Source: Nitrospirota bacterium (GTDB lineage: Bacteria; Nitrospirota; Thermodesulfovibrionia; Thermodesulfovibrionales; SM23-35). From it: 64,000 nucleotides of DNA. Under the pieces are notes generated by a model. It made no database searches. It was not told the DNA's origin and saw nothing but the letters and a program-made list of their open reading frames with translations. Below, piece after piece: positions 5,683 to 64,000 of this stretch (position 1 is its first letter; every line of letters starts with the position of its first letter). Where the stretch lies: NCBI GenBank assembly GCA_040754395.1, contig JBFMCL010000005.1, positions 1-64,000 of the forward strand, read 5' to 3'. Made by a program: the position numbers and the translations under genes.

Positions 5683-5823
5683 AGGCTGTTCAGCTTTATT
5701 GACAGAAAAAGTGCGTCAGGCTCCGAAGTGGTGCAAGCGAGCAATTTCTATAAGCGTCATAACCGACAAAACGCTGAAACTACTGTCTCAATAAACTTAA
5801 AACGCGATAGTACGCTAACCCCA

Positions 5824-6978
5824 ATGCACCCCAAAAACACGGCCAGCGAATCGCTCTTCCTGCAGCTGGTGTTTCCTTCCCCAATTAGGGAACCTTTGGA
5901 AGTGCAGATGACGAACTTTCAGGAGCTGAAAGCGTTATGCCTGCACCACAACCTTTTCCCCCTCGTCTATACTCGCGTGGAGAAATACGGCCGTCTTTTT
6001 TCCCCGGAAAAGGCGGTCAATGATTTTCTGGAGGAATCGAAAGGGTTATACCTGAAGGGAGTTGCCCTGTCCGCACAGCAGGAAGCTGTAGAGAATGAAA
6101 TAGTCAACCTGCTGACACAAAGACAGATTCCGTCTGTGGTGATAAAGGGGAACAGGCTTGCCAACGAGATATATGACGATCCGAACTGCAGGACGTCATC
6201 TGATATCGATATCCTGATCCGCAGGCAGGACGCGGTAATGGCTGACAGCATCCTCAGGGAACACGGATATATCGCAGAGGCGGATATCCCGCTGATCTAC
6301 TGTCTGGCACGCATCCATCACGCAATCTACTTTCACCCCCAAAACAGCCTGCTTGTTGAAATGCATTGGGGATTTGGCGTTCCATACTTTTTCAGACTGG
6401 ATGCGACGGAAATCTGGAGAGAGGTCAGTATTCCCGATATGGGAGAGGCGAAACTTTCCCCTGAAATGCTCATGTGCATGCTCCTGATTCACCATCACGC
6501 CCATTCATTCAGGGAACTCAAGATTCTTGTTGACATCATATGGACGATGGGGAAATATGAGGATGTGATCGACTGGCATTCTTTCTTCCGGGGAATCAGG
6601 AAAGCGGGGCTTATCAGGACAACCCATATTACACTGAAGCAGATGCGGAGTGTATGGGGAACGGCTATTGATCAGGTAAAAGCTGCGGGGATACTCGAGC
6701 AGGAAATCGGTACTGCCGGAAGCAGAATTCCTTCACTGCTCCTCTCATATTTCCGGATGAATATCGATAAAGACAGGGAAAATAATCTGTATAAGGATAA
6801 ACTTGTTGCGCGGTTTGCGCTGGATCATTGGTCAACCATCCTGCTCTCCTATTTCAGGACATTGTTTCCGATGCCCGAGGCGATCAGGGAACTTTACCGG
6901 GACAGGAGGACCTGGTCGCTTCCGTTCAACTATCTGAGATTCATACGCTGGCGCGTAAAGGAGTGGGTTAAAGGGTAA
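5824..6978 (+). CDS. Nucleotidyltransferase family protein (PF14907-like)
   Basis: I chose ATG 5824 (MHPKNTASES); the frame is open to GTG 5728 but that extra sequence is low-quality and adjoins the repeat. The 384-residue protein contains IPSVVIKGNRLANEIYDDP and RTSSDIDILIR, the K-G and D-x-D signature of the uncharacterised nucleotidyltransferase family. A His-rich segment, LIHHHAHSFRELKILVD, follows. Such proteins occur both in polysaccharide loci and in HprK/PqqD peptide systems; here the next gene is a sugar-phosphate transferase. The substrate is unknown. Confidence 0.75.
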   Translation: MHPKNTASESLFLQLVFPSPIREPLEVQMTNFQELKALCLHHNLFPLVYTRVEKYGRLFSPEKAVNDFLEESKGLYLKGVALSAQQEAVENEIVNLLTQRQIPSVVIKGNRLANEIYDDPNCRTSSDIDILIRRQDAVMADSILREHGYIAEADIPLIYCLARIHHAIYFHPQNSLLVEMHWGFGVPYFFRLDATEIWREVSIPDMGEAKLSPEMLMCMLLIHHHAHSFRELKILVDIIWTMGKYEDVIDWHSFFRGIRKAGLIRTTHITLKQMRSVWGTAIDQVKAAGILEQEIGTAGSRIPSLLLSYFRMNIDKDRENNLYKDKLVARFALDHWSTILLSYFRTLFPMPEAIRELYRDRRTWSLPFNYLRFIRWRVKEWVKG

Positions 6979-57845: not shown

Positions 57846-58388
57846 TCAGAGAAAGGTTTTTTTGACGAAGCTGCGCAATGAGGGGGAGATTGAACACCGC
57901 TGGATCATTACAAAAAAATTTGATTTTACAAGGCTTTTCTTCGCAATGAGATAATTGCTGATTCTGCGGGGAAAGGATTCCATATCAAGAGATGTTTTTC
58001 TGCCTCCTGCACCACATCTCTCCACGCTGATCACCTTCCCGAGGATATTCTCCGCACAAACCGGGTCATCCAGCCCCCTTAAGGCATCTCCCTTTGTCTG
58101 AACAATATTCACCTTCTCTCTCCGCTGCATTCTGACGACCCTGTGGAGCAGTAAGGAATTGTCTGCTGCGGTGAAAAAGATCAGATCACCAACCTGCAAT
58201 GAAGGAACGGGAATTTGTTTGATTGTCAGGACTTCTCCTCCGTTCAGAAAAGGAGCCATGCTGCGGCCGGTTACCTTCACCCTGAGAGTCAGTCCGCTGC
58301 GCAGGATTTCTTTGAAAAGCGCAGATGTGTATGGGGTAGCAAGGTCTCCGGTAAGATCTGGCGGGTTATGCCGAGAGAAAATTTTCAA
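57846..58388 (-). CDS. S24/S26-type signal peptidase, Ser/His (SipW-like) class, in the RiPP operon
   Basis: 180 residues. VTGRSMAPFLNGGEVLTIK carries the nucleophile Ser43. LQVGDLIFFTAADNSLLLHRVVRM carries His82 where bacterial signal peptidase I has Lys, so it is of the Ser/His type. TKGDALRGLDDPV is the usual S-x-D-N-like box in the form G-D-A. No long N-terminal membrane helix is seen. It overlaps the kinase gene by 23 bases and is the last gene of the operon. It may cleave the leader of the precursor peptide; this is inferred. Confidence 0.8.
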   Translation of the reverse strand: MKIFSRHNPPDLTGDLATPYTSALFKEILRSGLTLRVKVTGRSMAPFLNGGEVLTIKQIPVPSLQVGDLIFFTAADNSLLLHRVVRMQRREKVNIVQTKGDALRGLDDPVCAENILGKVISVERCGAGGRKTSLDMESFPRRISNYLIAKKSLVKSNFFVMIQRCSISPSLRSFVKKTFL

Positions 58389-59259
58389 GGATATCTACCA
58401 CTTCTGTGCCGGGCCTGAAATGCAGCCTGTATGCCGGCACCCGGGAAGTCAGCTCTTCACAAAAGAAGAGAATGTGCGGCATTATCTCGCGGTCGTACCA
58501 AGGGACGGATACGACTGCGATAAGGCTCTCAAATGCCTCCCGCTGAGTTATCTGCTCTATCCTGTTATCATCGGCGTGTGCAAGGAAGAAAATTCCTTCC
58601 AATACAACGCTTTTATTCATCGCGATTCCGCCTTCTCCCGGCCAGGGCGTACCGAATACTCTGAATGCATTATCTGTCATTCTGACAGCGACTCTGTCAT
58701 CGCTGAGCATATCAGCATATGCTTTTTTCACAAACTGCCGGGAAAGTGTAGTCTTCCCGGCGCCGGAACGCCCGGGAAAGATATAGCCTTTTTTATCAAT
58801 AATGATCCCCGCTGCATGTACCAGAGCGCCTGCCCGCTGTGCAAGGTGATACATAAGAAGGATCTGGTCAAGGGGGTATCGCACGGGATTGGAGAGAAAG
58901 GGGCGGCCGTCTTTTTCAATCGCGAGATAGTCGCTGCAGTATACGGTTACCTCTGCAATATCATGATTCATTCTGGCGAGCCACAGAGGATGTTCCGAAA
59001 CAGGGGGATTATACAGGACGCAGTAGTCGGAACCATCACGGAACATCGCCCATGCCTGTTCACTGTCGAAGATTTTGTTCATCCGGCCGGTGTCGGGTAG
59101 GGGAGTAGTTTCAAGAGAGATCCGCATATCGGCAGCAGCGACTGGTTCAGACACGAAAAAAGTCACATATGCTGGATCGTCATCCAGTGCTATCCCTGCA
59201 TGATTGCATTGAATGTGCATACGGACAGACGCGATGTCCAGATTATGGATATCCGGCAT
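58366..59259 (-). CDS. HprK-related kinase in the RiPP operon
   Basis: 297 residues. Walker A is YIFPGRSGAGKTTLSRQF (about 163-175). A conserved AYADMLSDDRVAVR and FGTPWPGEGGIAMNKSVVLEGIFFL follow, matching HPr kinase/phosphorylase-like proteins of the HprK-related group found in PqqD-containing gene clusters. The N-terminal ~140 residues are not part of the kinase core. Its substrate may be the precursor peptide or a small molecule. The gene begins 26 bases after the precursor stop. Confidence 0.82.
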   Translation of the reverse strand: MPDIHNLDIASVRMHIQCNHAGIALDDDPAYVTFFVSEPVAAADMRISLETTPLPDTGRMNKIFDSEQAWAMFRDGSDYCVLYNPPVSEHPLWLARMNHDIAEVTVYCSDYLAIEKDGRPFLSNPVRYPLDQILLMYHLAQRAGALVHAAGIIIDKKGYIFPGRSGAGKTTLSRQFVKKAYADMLSDDRVAVRMTDNAFRVFGTPWPGEGGIAMNKSVVLEGIFFLAHADDNRIEQITQREAFESLIAVVSVPWYDREIMPHILFFCEELTSRVPAYRLHFRPGTEVVDILENFLSA

Positions 59260-59285
59260 GATTAGTTCTTTATGGATGAAAAATC

Positions 59286-59465
59286 CTATGAACCTGCTTT
59301 AGAGCACCTATGCGCCATGCAGGGAGGGGGCTTTATCGGGGCAGCCCCTGACTGGCTTGTTTTGCATCCTATTGCCAATACTTCGTCCGCAGTCAACTCA
59401 ATTACCCTGAGCATTGGTTTCTCATATACAGGCTTTGTAGCAGTGTGTGTAAAATCGTCTTTCAT
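59286..59465 (-). CDS. RiPP precursor peptide (59 aa)
   Basis: ATG 59465 has GGAGG with a 6-base spacing; an overlapping ATG at 59470 hits a stop after two codons. The leader part contains YEKPMLRVIELTADEVLAIG, then CK at positions 34-35. The C-terminal part has a Pro-rich stretch and ends CMAHRCSKAGS. Cysteines are at 34, 49 and 54. Position between a radical SAM/SPASM gene and an HprK-like gene, size, and the leader/core look mark it as a modified-peptide precursor. Likely changes are thioether or similar links at Cys. I cannot assign a known precursor family. Confidence 0.8.
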   Translation of the reverse strand: MKDDFTHTATKPVYEKPMLRVIELTADEVLAIGCKTSQSGAAPIKPPPCMAHRCSKAGS

Positions 59466-59481
59466 TCCATCCCTCCTTTTT

Positions 59482-60552
59482 TTAGGGAATTTCTTGTATC
59501 ATCTGAAAACGGGATCTGCCGAGGGCACAGAGATATGCGGAAGGAGCATCTTCGGAATTGTTCTCGAGCCTGAAAAAGGCCGGGCAGTATCCGCACAAGA
59601 TTCTGTTGCTGCATGCCCTGCAGACATGGTCTGATGCAGGTTTTTTCTCCATGAGTCGGGGGATGACCATATTCCATCCCTCAATAAATCCCCCTTCTCT
59701 GAGGTCGAAACCAAGTTCCGTTGGCATCAGACAGGGCTGGAGAATGCCGTTTGGATCGATATAGAAATCCGTAACGCCGGCACCGCAATAATAGACCGTT
59801 TCCAGCGATGAAGTATCAGAATATCCCGCATAGAAATCCTTCCAGTCCCTGCTTCTGTCATCGTCTGCGAATTCGAACGCAACTGCATCTTCTGGAGGGA
59901 CGCGAAGGGTTAGGGGTGATTGATCGCCGTCAAAACACGGAAATATTGCCGGGTCAAACCGGAACTTTACTCCCAGACTTCTCGCAAGGTTTTCCATGGC
60001 ATGAAACTCATGGCGGTTCAGGGTCATGAGAATGGTTTTGAGTCTTACTGCGATGTTATGTTCGAGCAGTGTTGTGATCCCTGCAAGGCATTTTTCAAAT
60101 GAGTCCTTTATGCCGGTGATATGTTCGTACGTTGCGGCAGTGGCTCCGTACACGCTTATCTCAACGGACTGGGGAGGCAGTTCTCTAAACAGGGCAGCCA
60201 CGTCATCGGTTATCAGCGTCCCGTTCGTAAAGACACTCACCAGTATGCCGTTCAGTTTTATGTGCCTGTAGATATCAGGGAAATCCTTGCGCAACAGCGG
60301 TTCCCCGCCGGTAATCAGGATATCAAGGCAGCCTGCGGCTGTCACGTCATCGATGACAGACAACAGATGCCCTGTGTCCATCTCGCTCATGCCGTTTTTT
60401 TGCGCAGCAGGGATATAACAGTGCACGCACCTGAGGTTGCAGCGATGCGTAATGTCCAGGGTTCCGGATAAAGGAACACGCAGGGCTGTGAGCCTGTTGC
60501 TGAACCATTGGAAATATTCCTTATTGCTGAGAGTTGAGGTCGAACATTCCAT
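59482..60552 (-). CDS. Radical SAM/SPASM peptide-modifying enzyme
   Basis: 356 residues. The radical SAM cluster motif is ITHRCNLRCVHCYIP (Cys38, Cys42, Cys45), followed by LITGGEPLLRKDF and SVYGATAATYEHITG. The C-terminal SPASM domain has YYCGAGVTDFYIDPNG-LQPC and HVCRACSNRILCGYCPAFF for auxiliary clusters. It ends 16 bases before the precursor start and begins one base after the PqqD stop. It is the probable maturase of the 59286-59465 peptide. Confidence 0.93.
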   Translation of the reverse strand: MECSTSTLSNKEYFQWFSNRLTALRVPLSGTLDITHRCNLRCVHCYIPAAQKNGMSEMDTGHLLSVIDDVTAAGCLDILITGGEPLLRKDFPDIYRHIKLNGILVSVFTNGTLITDDVAALFRELPPQSVEISVYGATAATYEHITGIKDSFEKCLAGITTLLEHNIAVRLKTILMTLNRHEFHAMENLARSLGVKFRFDPAIFPCFDGDQSPLTLRVPPEDAVAFEFADDDRSRDWKDFYAGYSDTSSLETVYYCGAGVTDFYIDPNGILQPCLMPTELGFDLREGGFIEGWNMVIPRLMEKKPASDHVCRACSNRILCGYCPAFFRLENNSEDAPSAYLCALGRSRFQMIQEIP

Positions 60553-60553
60553 T

Positions 60554-60859
60554 TTATTCTTTTCTGAGAATCAACCCTTCTTTCAGAAGCTGGGCGATGA
60601 ACTCCTCGATATCGGCATCTGCCTGCCCCTGGCCGCCCTCAAAGTGGCTGATGGTTTCACTCCGGATATCACCGAGCGTTTTTCTGCCATCCAGCTGATT
60701 CCACACGAATGCAGCCACAGGATTCAGTGCAAAAATCCTCTGCATATCAGCCAGTTTTCCCTTGACCGGAACAAGGATGGTTTCTCCCGCGATCGAGCGG
60801 TGAACAATGTCCTCCTTCTTTACAAAGGTTTCCGACCAGATTCTGCCGTCAGTATGCAT
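60554..60859 (-). CDS. PqqD-family peptide chaperone (RiPP recognition element)
   Basis: 101 residues. ALNPVAAFVWNQLDGRKTLGDIRSETISHFEGGQGQADADIEEFIAQLLKEGLI is the winged-helix PqqD fold that binds leader peptides and presents them to a radical SAM enzyme. KADMQRIFALNP-type and W-x-x-L-D-G-x-x-T signatures are visible. It adjoins the SPASM gene directly and begins 6 bases after the C25 peptidase stop, so the three are surely one transcript. Confidence 0.92.
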   Translation of the reverse strand: MHTDGRIWSETFVKKEDIVHRSIAGETILVPVKGKLADMQRIFALNPVAAFVWNQLDGRKTLGDIRSETISHFEGGQGQADADIEEFIAQLLKEGLILRKE

Positions 60860-60865
60860 TATTGT

Positions 60866-63800
60866 CTATTTTAGTCTCAGTGCCGGGTCACCGGTAACGC
60901 CGTATAAGTCCATTATATATCCGGAGACACCCATTATGCCACCCTTTTCCAGGGTCTTGCGGACAATGTCTCCGAGGACTTTTGTATTGTCCACAAGATA
61001 TGACTGGAAAAACGCCTTGTCCAGAGCGACCGCTTCAGGATTCATGGACATCCCGCTTGGTGAGAACACCGCAATAGCTCCCCCGTTCTGTTTCAGGATC
61101 AGCGCTTCACCCAATGTATCCAGCCCGGGGACCGTATGGTCTCCGGTAAGGCAGGTCATGGCGGTCAGAACAGGGAGACGCTCCATGTTATTCATTAAGG
61201 CAACATCATCTGTTGTCAGGAGACCGTCCTGGGACAGCCGGTCGAAGCCCGCGTGACCGATATAATTCAGCACCACGGCCCCGCGGTTGATGCCGTTCAG
61301 GGTAAGACTCCGTGCTTCCGACACGGAATGGTCAGAGAGATAGATTTTTTCTGTCGTATACTGGGAAGGTACAAGCGCAGCAACCGCATCGCTGTCTGCA
61401 GGGAAATTCCCTCCGGGTTCAGGATAATCGGCAAGCATGAGAATACGGTTCTTCCAGTCTCCGCCTGACGAGCTTTCATAGGAAATTATTTTATTCAGCA
61501 GATTCTGGAGTTCCTGTGAGGAAACCGCAGGCAGTCTGCCTATCGACATCTCAGGCACATGATCTCCGTTTACGTCAGCATAACGGTTGTCTGAAGGGAA
61601 CAGGCCGTCAGGTGTGCCGATGATGAAAGGAGGCATGAGATTCGTTCCGTATCCGAGCCTGTCCTTGTAATCTTCCGTGCCCTTTCCTGCAAGCGCGACA
61701 TAGCGGGGTGCCTTATTCCAGCTGTAGTAGGCATATGCGAGGAATTTCCTGATTGCCTCAGGTGAAAAGATACTGTCGCTGAATTCGTCCATGATGTCTT
61801 CTATCTCTACCACTGCGGTTTTCAGTCCCTGGGATTTCCGGTAGTCTGCAAGCGCCTGTGATGCTCCCTTGAGTTCCTTCGGGGTGATGACCAGATAATC
61901 GGCGCTGTTTGTCCTGCTCCTGAGCTGGGAAGGATGGTCCGCAAGGACAGAAAGAGGAGATTTGATGGCTTTGGACGAGAGTATAAAATATACAGAAGCA
62001 GGGGATGACGGCATGAAACTTGCGCGGTAATTGCCGGGTCCTTTACTGTCAATTGTCGTTCCTTGTATGAGTTTGACCTTGTCCGGTCTGGTGACATCGA
62101 AAACAAGGATTTTCGGGTCGGTAAATCCTTCGGCAGTCACTACAGGATTCCCGTTTGCTCTGGCGAGCAACTGATCATTTTCCGCTCTGTAGAGCCGGTG
62201 ATAGCTCAGATCAAGGGAATCGATATACACGATGCTGTAAGGGACACCTGCGTCGAGCAGACCGTTCAGTCTCACGGTATTATTCCCGTCGGTCAGGTGT
62301 GACTGGCTGAAAGAGACGCTGAAAGTGTGCGGCTTGGCGCCATACCAGGTGCTTTCCCCGATTTCGGTGCCATTCATGCTTACAGACACATGATGGTCTG
62401 TGTTCGTCGCGCCCACGAGGTTGACGGTAAGGATCGCACTGCCGGATACCCCGGCAACTCCGCCCGCATTGATATCAATGCTGATGCTGCCCCAGTCGGG
62501 GTCGTCAGCGACTATATAGTCCCATAGCCAGTAATCGGACTCAGGATCAGTGAATAGGCCTGTTGCGGTCCAGAGGTCTTCCTCATAATGGACTGTATCG
62601 AAAAATGTCTGTACAACAGAAGCAGGAACAGGGCTCCTTCCGGAGATGCTCTCCATGAGCATTGCTTTGCCTTTTTCAAGCCGGTAGACATTCTTGTCGG
62701 TATAAAGGCTTTCAATACCCACCCCGTAGAAATAGATTCCTGCGTTGTTATCAGCAACCAAATAGGCGTGATCCTTTCCACGGTTCTTGAGGCTCAACTG
62801 ACTGCTTAGCGCAGGATTTGCAGTGCCGCCCTGGAGCAGGAAAGAGATATCAGCCTTATTGATGAAATAGAGACCGTTTTCTCCTACCGTTATCTTGGCG
62901 GCTGCCGTCTGATTCGGGGCGGCAGGGGCGGGCGGGAGCGAGGGAGACGGTTTGCGGGAAAGTGCGGAATACCTTGATTTCTCTGTGTCCTGAATTGTTC
63001 CGCCTGCGAGGATTCCGGCTGTTGCCTGTGAGACGCGGCGGGCAGAGAGCTCATGTGCAGTCCTGCTGTATCCGGCATGCCGTTTTCCGCTCATGCCGAA
63101 TGCTGAGAGGTGATTGTTTGCCTGTACTCGGTATGGTCCATAGGTGTTGTTTTTCCCGCTTGATTCAATCTCGACAAGCAGATACTCATAGGAGTTGCCG
63201 GCAAATGCATTGTTGTCCACATATCTGTAGGTGCCTCCCTGGGGAGCAGTGAGCAGTCCCGGAAGAAGTCTGTCATTGACCTGCAGATATTCCCCCGATG
63301 CCTTATCCAGGCGGTAGAGATAGAATCCGACAGTACCTGTTTCAGATGCAGTTGTCCAGGTTACCACTGTCCTGCCGTTCTCAACTCCTGCCGAGAATGA
63401 GGATATGACCGCACGGGTGATTACGAGCTGCTCACAGATCTTTGCCGTCTGATTGTAGCTCCAGTCGTTCGTGGTGTTGCTGTCGAATCCGTCGGATGTT
63501 CTCCTGATCGACCAGCCGGGAGATACGGTGCTTACATTCACAAATGCATCGTCCTGCCATATCCCTTTTGCGACCGCAGGAGAATCGTCTCCCAGAAAAT
63601 CGGTATCCAGGGTGATGGTGGAACTCCATGCCACATAGTCTACAACCTCTCCTCCGGAATTATAGAGCAGTATCTGGTCTGATGGGGAGGAGTTCCGCGG
63701 GTCTCCGAAATCATCGGACGGGAAAGAAATGCACACATCATCACCGCCTGAACAGTTGCTGTCAGTGGCGCAGGGAGTGTTCGATACCGCGCAATACTTA

Positions 63801-64000
63801 TTATACGATTGCGCAAAAAGATAGTATGTGCCATTCACCTCTTGATGCTGCGGCACTATTTCGTACAGGAAGACATAGAGTTTCTGCCGGGAAGCCAGCA
63901 TGATGTCCGCATTGTTGAACTGCGGGATGGTAAACGTGAACCCGTCGCCGTCGGTAATCCTGTAACCTGTTACATTGACCGCTGCAGTTGAGGCATTGTA
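60866..64000 (-). CDS. C25 (gingipain-type) cysteine peptidase with lamin-tail and FN3-like domains, N-terminus outside window
   Basis: The frame is open to the window edge, so the 5' end is missing; 1044 residues are visible. The first ~150 form a lamin-tail domain (DQILLYNSGGEVVDYVAW and WSIRRTSDG), followed by an FN3-like module (VVTWTTASETGTVGFYLYRLDK). The C-terminal half is the C25 domain, with catalytic His in LNYIGHAGFDRL and Cys in TAMTCLTGDHTVPGLDTLGEALI. It ends at the C25 boundary (GVTGDPALRLK) without a sorting domain. It is a secreted peptidase, transcribed with the RiPP genes. Confidence 0.87.
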   Translation of the reverse strand, partial: YNASTAAVNVTGYRITDGDGFTFTIPQFNNADIMLASRQKLYVFLYEIVPQHQEVNGTYYLFAQSYNKYCAVSNTPCATDSNCSGGDDVCISFPSDDFGDPRNSSPSDQILLYNSGGEVVDYVAWSSTITLDTDFLGDDSPAVAKGIWQDDAFVNVSTVSPGWSIRRTSDGFDSNTTNDWSYNQTAKICEQLVITRAVISSFSAGVENGRTVVTWTTASETGTVGFYLYRLDKASGEYLQVNDRLLPGLLTAPQGGTYRYVDNNAFAGNSYEYLLVEIESSGKNNTYGPYRVQANNHLSAFGMSGKRHAGYSRTAHELSARRVSQATAGILAGGTIQDTEKSRYSALSRKPSPSLPPAPAAPNQTAAAKITVGENGLYFINKADISFLLQGGTANPALSSQLSLKNRGKDHAYLVADNNAGIYFYGVGIESLYTDKNVYRLEKGKAMLMESISGRSPVPASVVQTFFDTVHYEEDLWTATGLFTDPESDYWLWDYIVADDPDWGSISIDINAGGVAGVSGSAILTVNLVGATNTDHHVSVSMNGTEIGESTWYGAKPHTFSVSFSQSHLTDGNNTVRLNGLLDAGVPYSIVYIDSLDLSYHRLYRAENDQLLARANGNPVVTAEGFTDPKILVFDVTRPDKVKLIQGTTIDSKGPGNYRASFMPSSPASVYFILSSKAIKSPLSVLADHPSQLRSRTNSADYLVITPKELKGASQALADYRKSQGLKTAVVEIEDIMDEFSDSIFSPEAIRKFLAYAYYSWNKAPRYVALAGKGTEDYKDRLGYGTNLMPPFIIGTPDGLFPSDNRYADVNGDHVPEMSIGRLPAVSSQELQNLLNKIISYESSSGGDWKNRILMLADYPEPGGNFPADSDAVAALVPSQYTTEKIYLSDHSVSEARSLTLNGINRGAVVLNYIGHAGFDRLSQDGLLTTDDVALMNNMERLPVLTAMTCLTGDHTVPGLDTLGEALILKQNGGAIAVFSPSGMSMNPEAVALDKAFFQSYLVDNTKVLGDIVRKTLEKGGIMGVSGYIMDLYGVTGDPALRLK

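Follow-up and report, generated by a model that had tools for sequence, protein, structure and literature searches.

A PqqD, radical SAM/SPASM and HprK-like kinase operon in Nitrospirota points to a RiPP pathway related to the LPP peptides

An operon of six genes on a Nitrospirota contig probably encodes a RiPP pathway built like those of the linear polyphosphorylated peptides (LPP) and the phosphorylated lasso peptides, its signature being a radical SAM/SPASM step. The gene set appears to represent a so far undescribed relative of the LPP family, which was first reported in 2026 (Nat Commun). It joins two RiPP logics that were previously apart in the literature we searched: radical SAM crosslinking on the one hand, and phosphorylation by an HprK-like kinase with signal-peptidase-type leader removal on the other. 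Six or more phyla, nearly all of them uncultured, carry the combination. Its link to a C25 peptidase, a giant secreted protein that is in some cases fused to S26, provides a handle on the purpose of phosphorylated RiPPs, named as an open question by the LPP authors (PMC13381572).

Results

The original prediction for the window (the whole stretch of 64,000 nucleotides analysed here) described five minus-strand genes for a PqqD protein, a SPASM enzyme, a precursor, an HprK-like kinase and an S26 peptidase; the last two overlap by 23 bases, and the neighbours up to the kinase lie 1, 16 and 26 bases apart. All five open reading frames were confirmed in place and with this spacing (Table 1). What had been overlooked is the first gene, encoding a C25 peptidase; the true operon thus comprises six genes in the order C25, PqqD, radical SAM, precursor, HprK-like kinase and S26. 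A gap of 6 bases separates the end of the C25 gene from PqqD, and the gene upstream of C25 has the opposite orientation. The start codon of the S26 gene, a TTG at 58388, is uncertain. Downstream genes for an M48 protease, a TraB-like and a PAP2-like protein are conserved neighbours in close relatives only and were left out of the system.

Table 1. Genes of the operon and their positions in the window
Feature	Position	Strand	Basis
C25 (gingipain/PorU-like) secreted peptidase, first operon gene	60866..64000 in window, to contig 66142	-	Pfam C25, LTD domain
PqqD-family RiPP recognition element (leader binder)	60554..60859	-	Pfam PqqD
Radical SAM/SPASM peptide maturase	59482..60552	-	CX3CX2C and seven SPASM Cys
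Precursor peptide, 59 aa	59286..59465	-	Alignment of relatives
HPr-kinase-like peptide kinase	58366..59259	-	P-loop, His/Asp conservation, HPrK/PEPCK fold
Soluble protease of the S26 family (archaeal/SipW type), probably the leader peptidase	57846..58388	-	TIGR02228, Ser/His/Asp triad

The placing of a 59-residue precursor between maturase and kinase was borne out by homologues at the same spot in dozens of genomes. Its ATG is preceded by a strong ribosome site (aaaggaggg), and it is under purifying selection, with dN of 0.11-0.32 and dS of 0.9-1.8 where estimable in six sampled homologous pairs. The recurrence of homologues between maturase and kinase, together with this selection, shows that it is not a chance open reading frame. 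The leader motif YEKPML occupies residues 14-19, the core starts at about C34 and includes C49 and C54, and the chain ends in Ser59. Across 29 aligned precursors, Y14, P17, C34, K35, C49 and C54 are invariant. In the wider set of 79, [Y/W]xxP is present in 78, the lone exception being a fragment without a cluster, and exactly three Cys are found in 57, with nearly all having at least two Cys beyond the first core Cys. Of the 68 precursors in which the motif is complete and a CK-type site was parsed, 65 have this first core Cys 20 residues after the Tyr or Trp. An LxxGC site in the precursor could be read as that of a lipoprotein, a reading we dropped because no hydrophobic signal precedes the site.

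Of the 79 precursors, 75 end in Ser, two in Thr, one (an orphan fragment) in Phe and one in Gly, counts that are not independent, as the sequences share ancestry; Ser is the last residue in about 9% of neighbouring open reading frames. Because the sequences are homologous, our argument for the C-terminal Ser is its contrast with the variable core rather than the raw count: outside the Cys, the last Ser and the Gly before it, the core is high-entropy, and no other core Ser/Thr position, including any near the core start, is conserved in the 79 precursors. The pattern is broken chiefly at a divergent locus (L137:4893-6290), in which kinase and S26 genes adjoin a precursor-like open reading frame ending in Gly.

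Upstream of the precursor, the PqqD protein matches the Pfam PqqD family with 58.2 bits (cut-off 23.4; E 1e-15) and is the sole PqqD match in the genome. The maturase, encoded by the single radical SAM gene in the window, carries the CX3CX2C motif (C38, C42, C45) and seven SPASM cysteines (C256, C274, C311, C314, C320, C323, C342), all invariant in 26 homologues. By sequence, its nearest PDB entry is SkfB (6efn, E 5.6e-17), followed by PqqE, while the fold of its model matches SuiB (closest, Z 24.7), SkfB, anSME and CteB. Given the SPASM type and the invariant Cys of the precursor, we assume that the enzyme modifies the core and consider Cys thioether crosslinks its most likely, and plausible, chemistry. 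It is possible, if somewhat doubtful, that it instead epimerises residues or joins them through C-C or C-O bonds, and that the three Cys serve for disulfides or metal binding. In favour of this, SuiB, the nearest enzyme by fold, links Lys and Trp by a C-C bond, PqqE ranks second by sequence, and SPASM folds do not separate these chemistries. Against it, strong conservation of core side chains is limited to the three Cys, the Lys and the last Ser; the core also has no conserved Trp/Tyr/Lys acceptor pair, and the best match by sequence is SkfB.

On the other side of the precursor lies the kinase, whose P-loop residues (GxSxxGK[T/S]), H148 and D187 are invariant in 12 homologues. Its AF2 model (pLDDT 92) has a PEPCK/HPrK fold. 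The fold matches are dominated by PEPCK; since HPrK/P is also matched and the cluster context is that of peptide modification, we read them as superfamily membership. What, then, would such a kinase phosphorylate? From the pattern of precursor conservation, phosphate is likely to go onto the last Ser, at its hydroxyl. The same position is used by the lasso peptide kinases PadeK, ThcoK and SyanK (PMC8498205), and the two replacements by Thr retain the hydroxyl, although they fit a C-terminal phosphosite imperfectly, as LppK does not accept Thr (PMC13381572). We regard it as unlikely that, within the same RiPP machinery, the kinase targets a Ser/Thr inside the core, with the C-terminal Ser kept for recognition by C25 or S26 or for attachment. 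Such a site would have precedents in LppK, which phosphorylates Ser3 of the LPP core (PMC13381572), and in BsfK, which phosphorylates the core Ser3 of Bsf lasso peptides; moreover, an LPP-like Butyrivibrio cluster without a radical SAM gene has the kinase, yet its precursor ends in Trp. Against it stand the near-invariance of the last residue, the variability of every other Ser/Thr position in the core and the behaviour of the three lasso kinases.

The S26 protein scores above the cut-off of the NCBIfam model for archaeal signal peptidases (TIGR02228; 58.4 versus 51.85 bits), and inspection of its sequence revealed no evident N-terminal membrane anchor. Its S43, H82 and D107 are invariant in 19 sequences, with spacings of 39 and 25 residues that equal those of LppS (S29/H68/D93). 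By its sequence and by analogy to LppS, the protein is likely the leader protease.

The newly added C25 gene spans 60866-66142 on the contig and encodes a protein of 1758 residues with an N-terminal signal-peptide-like sequence, a C25 domain (Pfam, E 5e-79) and an LTD domain. Its dyad of His1630 and Cys1664 is invariant in 35 homologues. C25 genes are present at 32 of the 74 examined loci, and only 2 of these 32 have an ABC exporter nearby. In Acidobacteria, an S26 domain is fused to the N terminus of the C25 protein and is followed by a hydrophobic segment, repeats and the C25 domain. These fusions are secreted proteins of 2,400-2,800 residues (L071, L072, L073, L075, L080, L081, L083, L084), one of them from a betaproteobacterial bin. 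The window-type clade of the kinase tree combines Nitrospirota, Thermodesulfobacteriota, Aminicenantes, Chloroflexota and Auribacterota (support 96/98). C25 is not confined to this clade: another one, mostly acidobacterial, and one Chloroflexota locus have it as well. The occurrence of C25 in separate kinase clades suggests horizontal transfer and repeated association.

Judged by operon position, recurrence at loci and fusion to S26, C25 is a linked secreted partner; as many clusters are devoid of it, it is predicted not to be essential to the core chemistry. Its place as the first operon gene, its recurrence in separate clades, the S26-C25 fusion, the matches to NCBIfam PorU and the rarity of ABC exporters beside it could also mean that the peptide does not exist as a free natural product: a PorU-like C25 would transfer or anchor the peptide, or the modified peptide would be needed for the function of the giant C25 protein at the cell surface. 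We think this improbable, as many clusters have no C25 and the variable core better fits a diversifying secreted peptide. The PorU match, too, falls short of the NCBIfam cut-off (242 versus 420 bits), and the genome contains no Por_Secre_tail match; for the same two reasons, we rejected the assignment as a type IX sortase PorU or to type IX secretion. Less probable still is the more far-reaching proposal of a cross-phylum RiPP class with three-Cys radical crosslinks and a C-terminal Ser phosphate, in which the secreted PorU-like C25 would use the phosphorylated end for attachment or finishing at the cell surface.

How widespread is the gene set? Searches with the kinase gave relatives in 38 of 198 Nitrospirota genomes and, in a genome collection, 43 loci. 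Radical SAM genes accompany the kinase at 39 of these 43 loci, PqqD at 34, S26 at 29 and C25 at 26, figures that include many truncated contigs. A search with the precursor only gave matches in 63 of 396 Nitrospirota genomes. The set of PqqD, SPASM, precursor, HprK-like kinase and S26, usually with C25, occurs in Nitrospirota, Desulfobacterota, Acidobacteriota, Chloroflexota, Aminicenantes and others. Homologous precursors beside related PqqD/SPASM genes, whose absence elsewhere would have spoken against the original prediction, are thus present in many genomes. Viral contigs searched with the precursor contained no relatives, and a plasmid collection searched with the kinase gave three weak matches only, among them the Butyrivibrio cluster.

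Several variants were seen along the way. Nitrospira-type clusters (L032, L033, L034, L037, L138-L144) have three radical SAM genes, an HprK-like gene, S26 and often an NTP transferase; their precursors end in RPS or RAS, and a core Cys-Ser replaces Cys-Lys. A subgroup with a WxxP leader (L036, L130-L135; WSKPEC...) has a rearranged gene order and, in some members, ABC exporters. In one genome (G196), a second, almost identical precursor copy (L121:9282) lies about 10 kb from the main cluster. The Butyrivibrio cluster mentioned above is located on plasmid pNP243 (L148:5818-7841), where kinase, a Cys-rich 57-residue YVKPEL peptide, PqqD and an S24/S26 peptidase stand together within a polysaccharide locus.

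Discussion

From the gene set, its conservation, the motifs, catalytic residues and folds, and the S26-C25 fusion in Acidobacteria, we infer the chemical steps and the sequence in which they occur, as well as export and what C25 does. PqqD would bind the YxxPxL leader and present the precursor to the SPASM enzyme, which would then act on the core, with thioether crosslinks at Cys as the most likely outcome. Next, the C-terminal Ser would be phosphorylated on its hydroxyl by the HprK-like kinase, and the soluble S26 protease, with PqqD assisting, would cleave directly ahead of the conserved (G)CK to remove the leader. The product may act together with the secreted C25 protein, or C25 may carry out the final trimming or attachment. 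Among these steps, leader binding by PqqD and leader cleavage by S26 are well supported by sequence motifs and by the LPP precedent. The proposal of a RiPP-type pathway with PqqD, SPASM, kinase and leader protease therefore holds up on gene set, conserved precursors, motifs and folds, though its first version lacked C25. The three Cys, the last Ser and S43/H82/D107 are residues at which the model can be tested.

In LPP biosynthesis (LppA/B/K/S/N/D), a YxxP leader is bound by the RRE protein LppB, without which LppS does not cleave it; phosphorylation of the core is the task of LppK (PMC13381572). The window system resembles it in its discrete RRE, YxxP leader, HprK-like kinase and archaeal-type signal peptidase with the same Ser/His/Asp spacing, as well as in having no macrolactam cyclase. 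Unlike LPP, it has a radical SAM/SPASM enzyme, a three-Cys core and a C25 partner, its conserved Ser is C-terminal instead of Ser3, and its host does not belong to the Bacillota. The LPP precursor motif YxxPxVLxHQxIxFETxxS is not matched either: its HQxIxFET part is found in none of the 79 precursors, though [Y/W]xxP is nearly universal. The LPP paper (PMC13381572) makes no mention of radical SAM or SPASM.

The likeness to phosphorylated lasso peptides (paeninodin, those of ThcoK/SyanK, and Bsf; PMC8498205, PMC10368454) lies in a YxxPxL leader bound by a PqqD-like B1 protein, an HprK-like kinase and the C-terminal Ser phosphosite. In contrast to these systems, the operon has no lasso cyclase and features SPASM and S26 instead. 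The genome contains no match to Transglut_core3, the lasso B2 protease domain, and one partial Asn_synthase match outside the operon. A gammaproteobacterial, lasso-like locus (L064:4238-9064) combines an Asn-synthetase-like gene, PqqD and a related kinase with no radical SAM gene; a small open reading frame there has a YEKPRL motif, a core without Cys and a last residue other than Ser.

With SPASM RiPPs, that is, sactipeptide systems such as that of SkfB and the streptide system of SuiB, the operon shares a SPASM maturase with two auxiliary clusters, a discrete RRE and a Cys-containing core, but its maturase has no N-terminal RRE domain. Kinase, S26 and C25 are not known as components of sactipeptide or streptide systems. 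The combination of PqqD, HprK-like kinase and radical SAM/SPASM also recalls the SynChlorMet (Scm) cassette, and ScmD, ScmE and ScmC are among the best-scoring models for the respective proteins; that the operon is this cassette, or another system already named in NCBIfam, is nevertheless highly improbable and was rejected, as scores fall far below the curated cut-offs (ScmD 45.8/100, ScmE 106.7/400, ScmC 25.8/125), and the precursor differs and matches no precursor family. The window also has a single radical SAM gene.

As the LPP motif is missing, a SPASM enzyme is added, lasso cyclase and B2 protease are lacking and the Scm scores are below cut-off, we file the operon under none of these three classes; by sequence and analogy, it would work like LPP with a radical SAM step. 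The original prediction knew of no described class with exactly this set. This is literally true of the open-licence literature we searched, where looking for PqqD with HprK and radical SAM, for a signal peptidase in SPASM clusters and for C25 in RiPPs yielded no paper on this set; a prior description elsewhere is possible. It is less apt in that the LPP family (2026) shares the RRE, kinase, signal peptidase and YxxP leader, and that the pairing of kinase and C-terminal Ser is known from lasso peptides.

In the window, no exporter adjoins the operon, nor does an LPP-type NTP transferase or an MsbA-like exporter; an NTP transferase and an ABC exporter are found with some relatives, which share them with LPP and with phosphoglycosylated lasso clusters. 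An NTP_transf_5 gene (PF14907) does lie in the window at 5728-6978, 52 kb from the operon and beside a sugar-transferase-like gene. Its product could act on a phosphopeptide, though it is more likely a polysaccharide gene.
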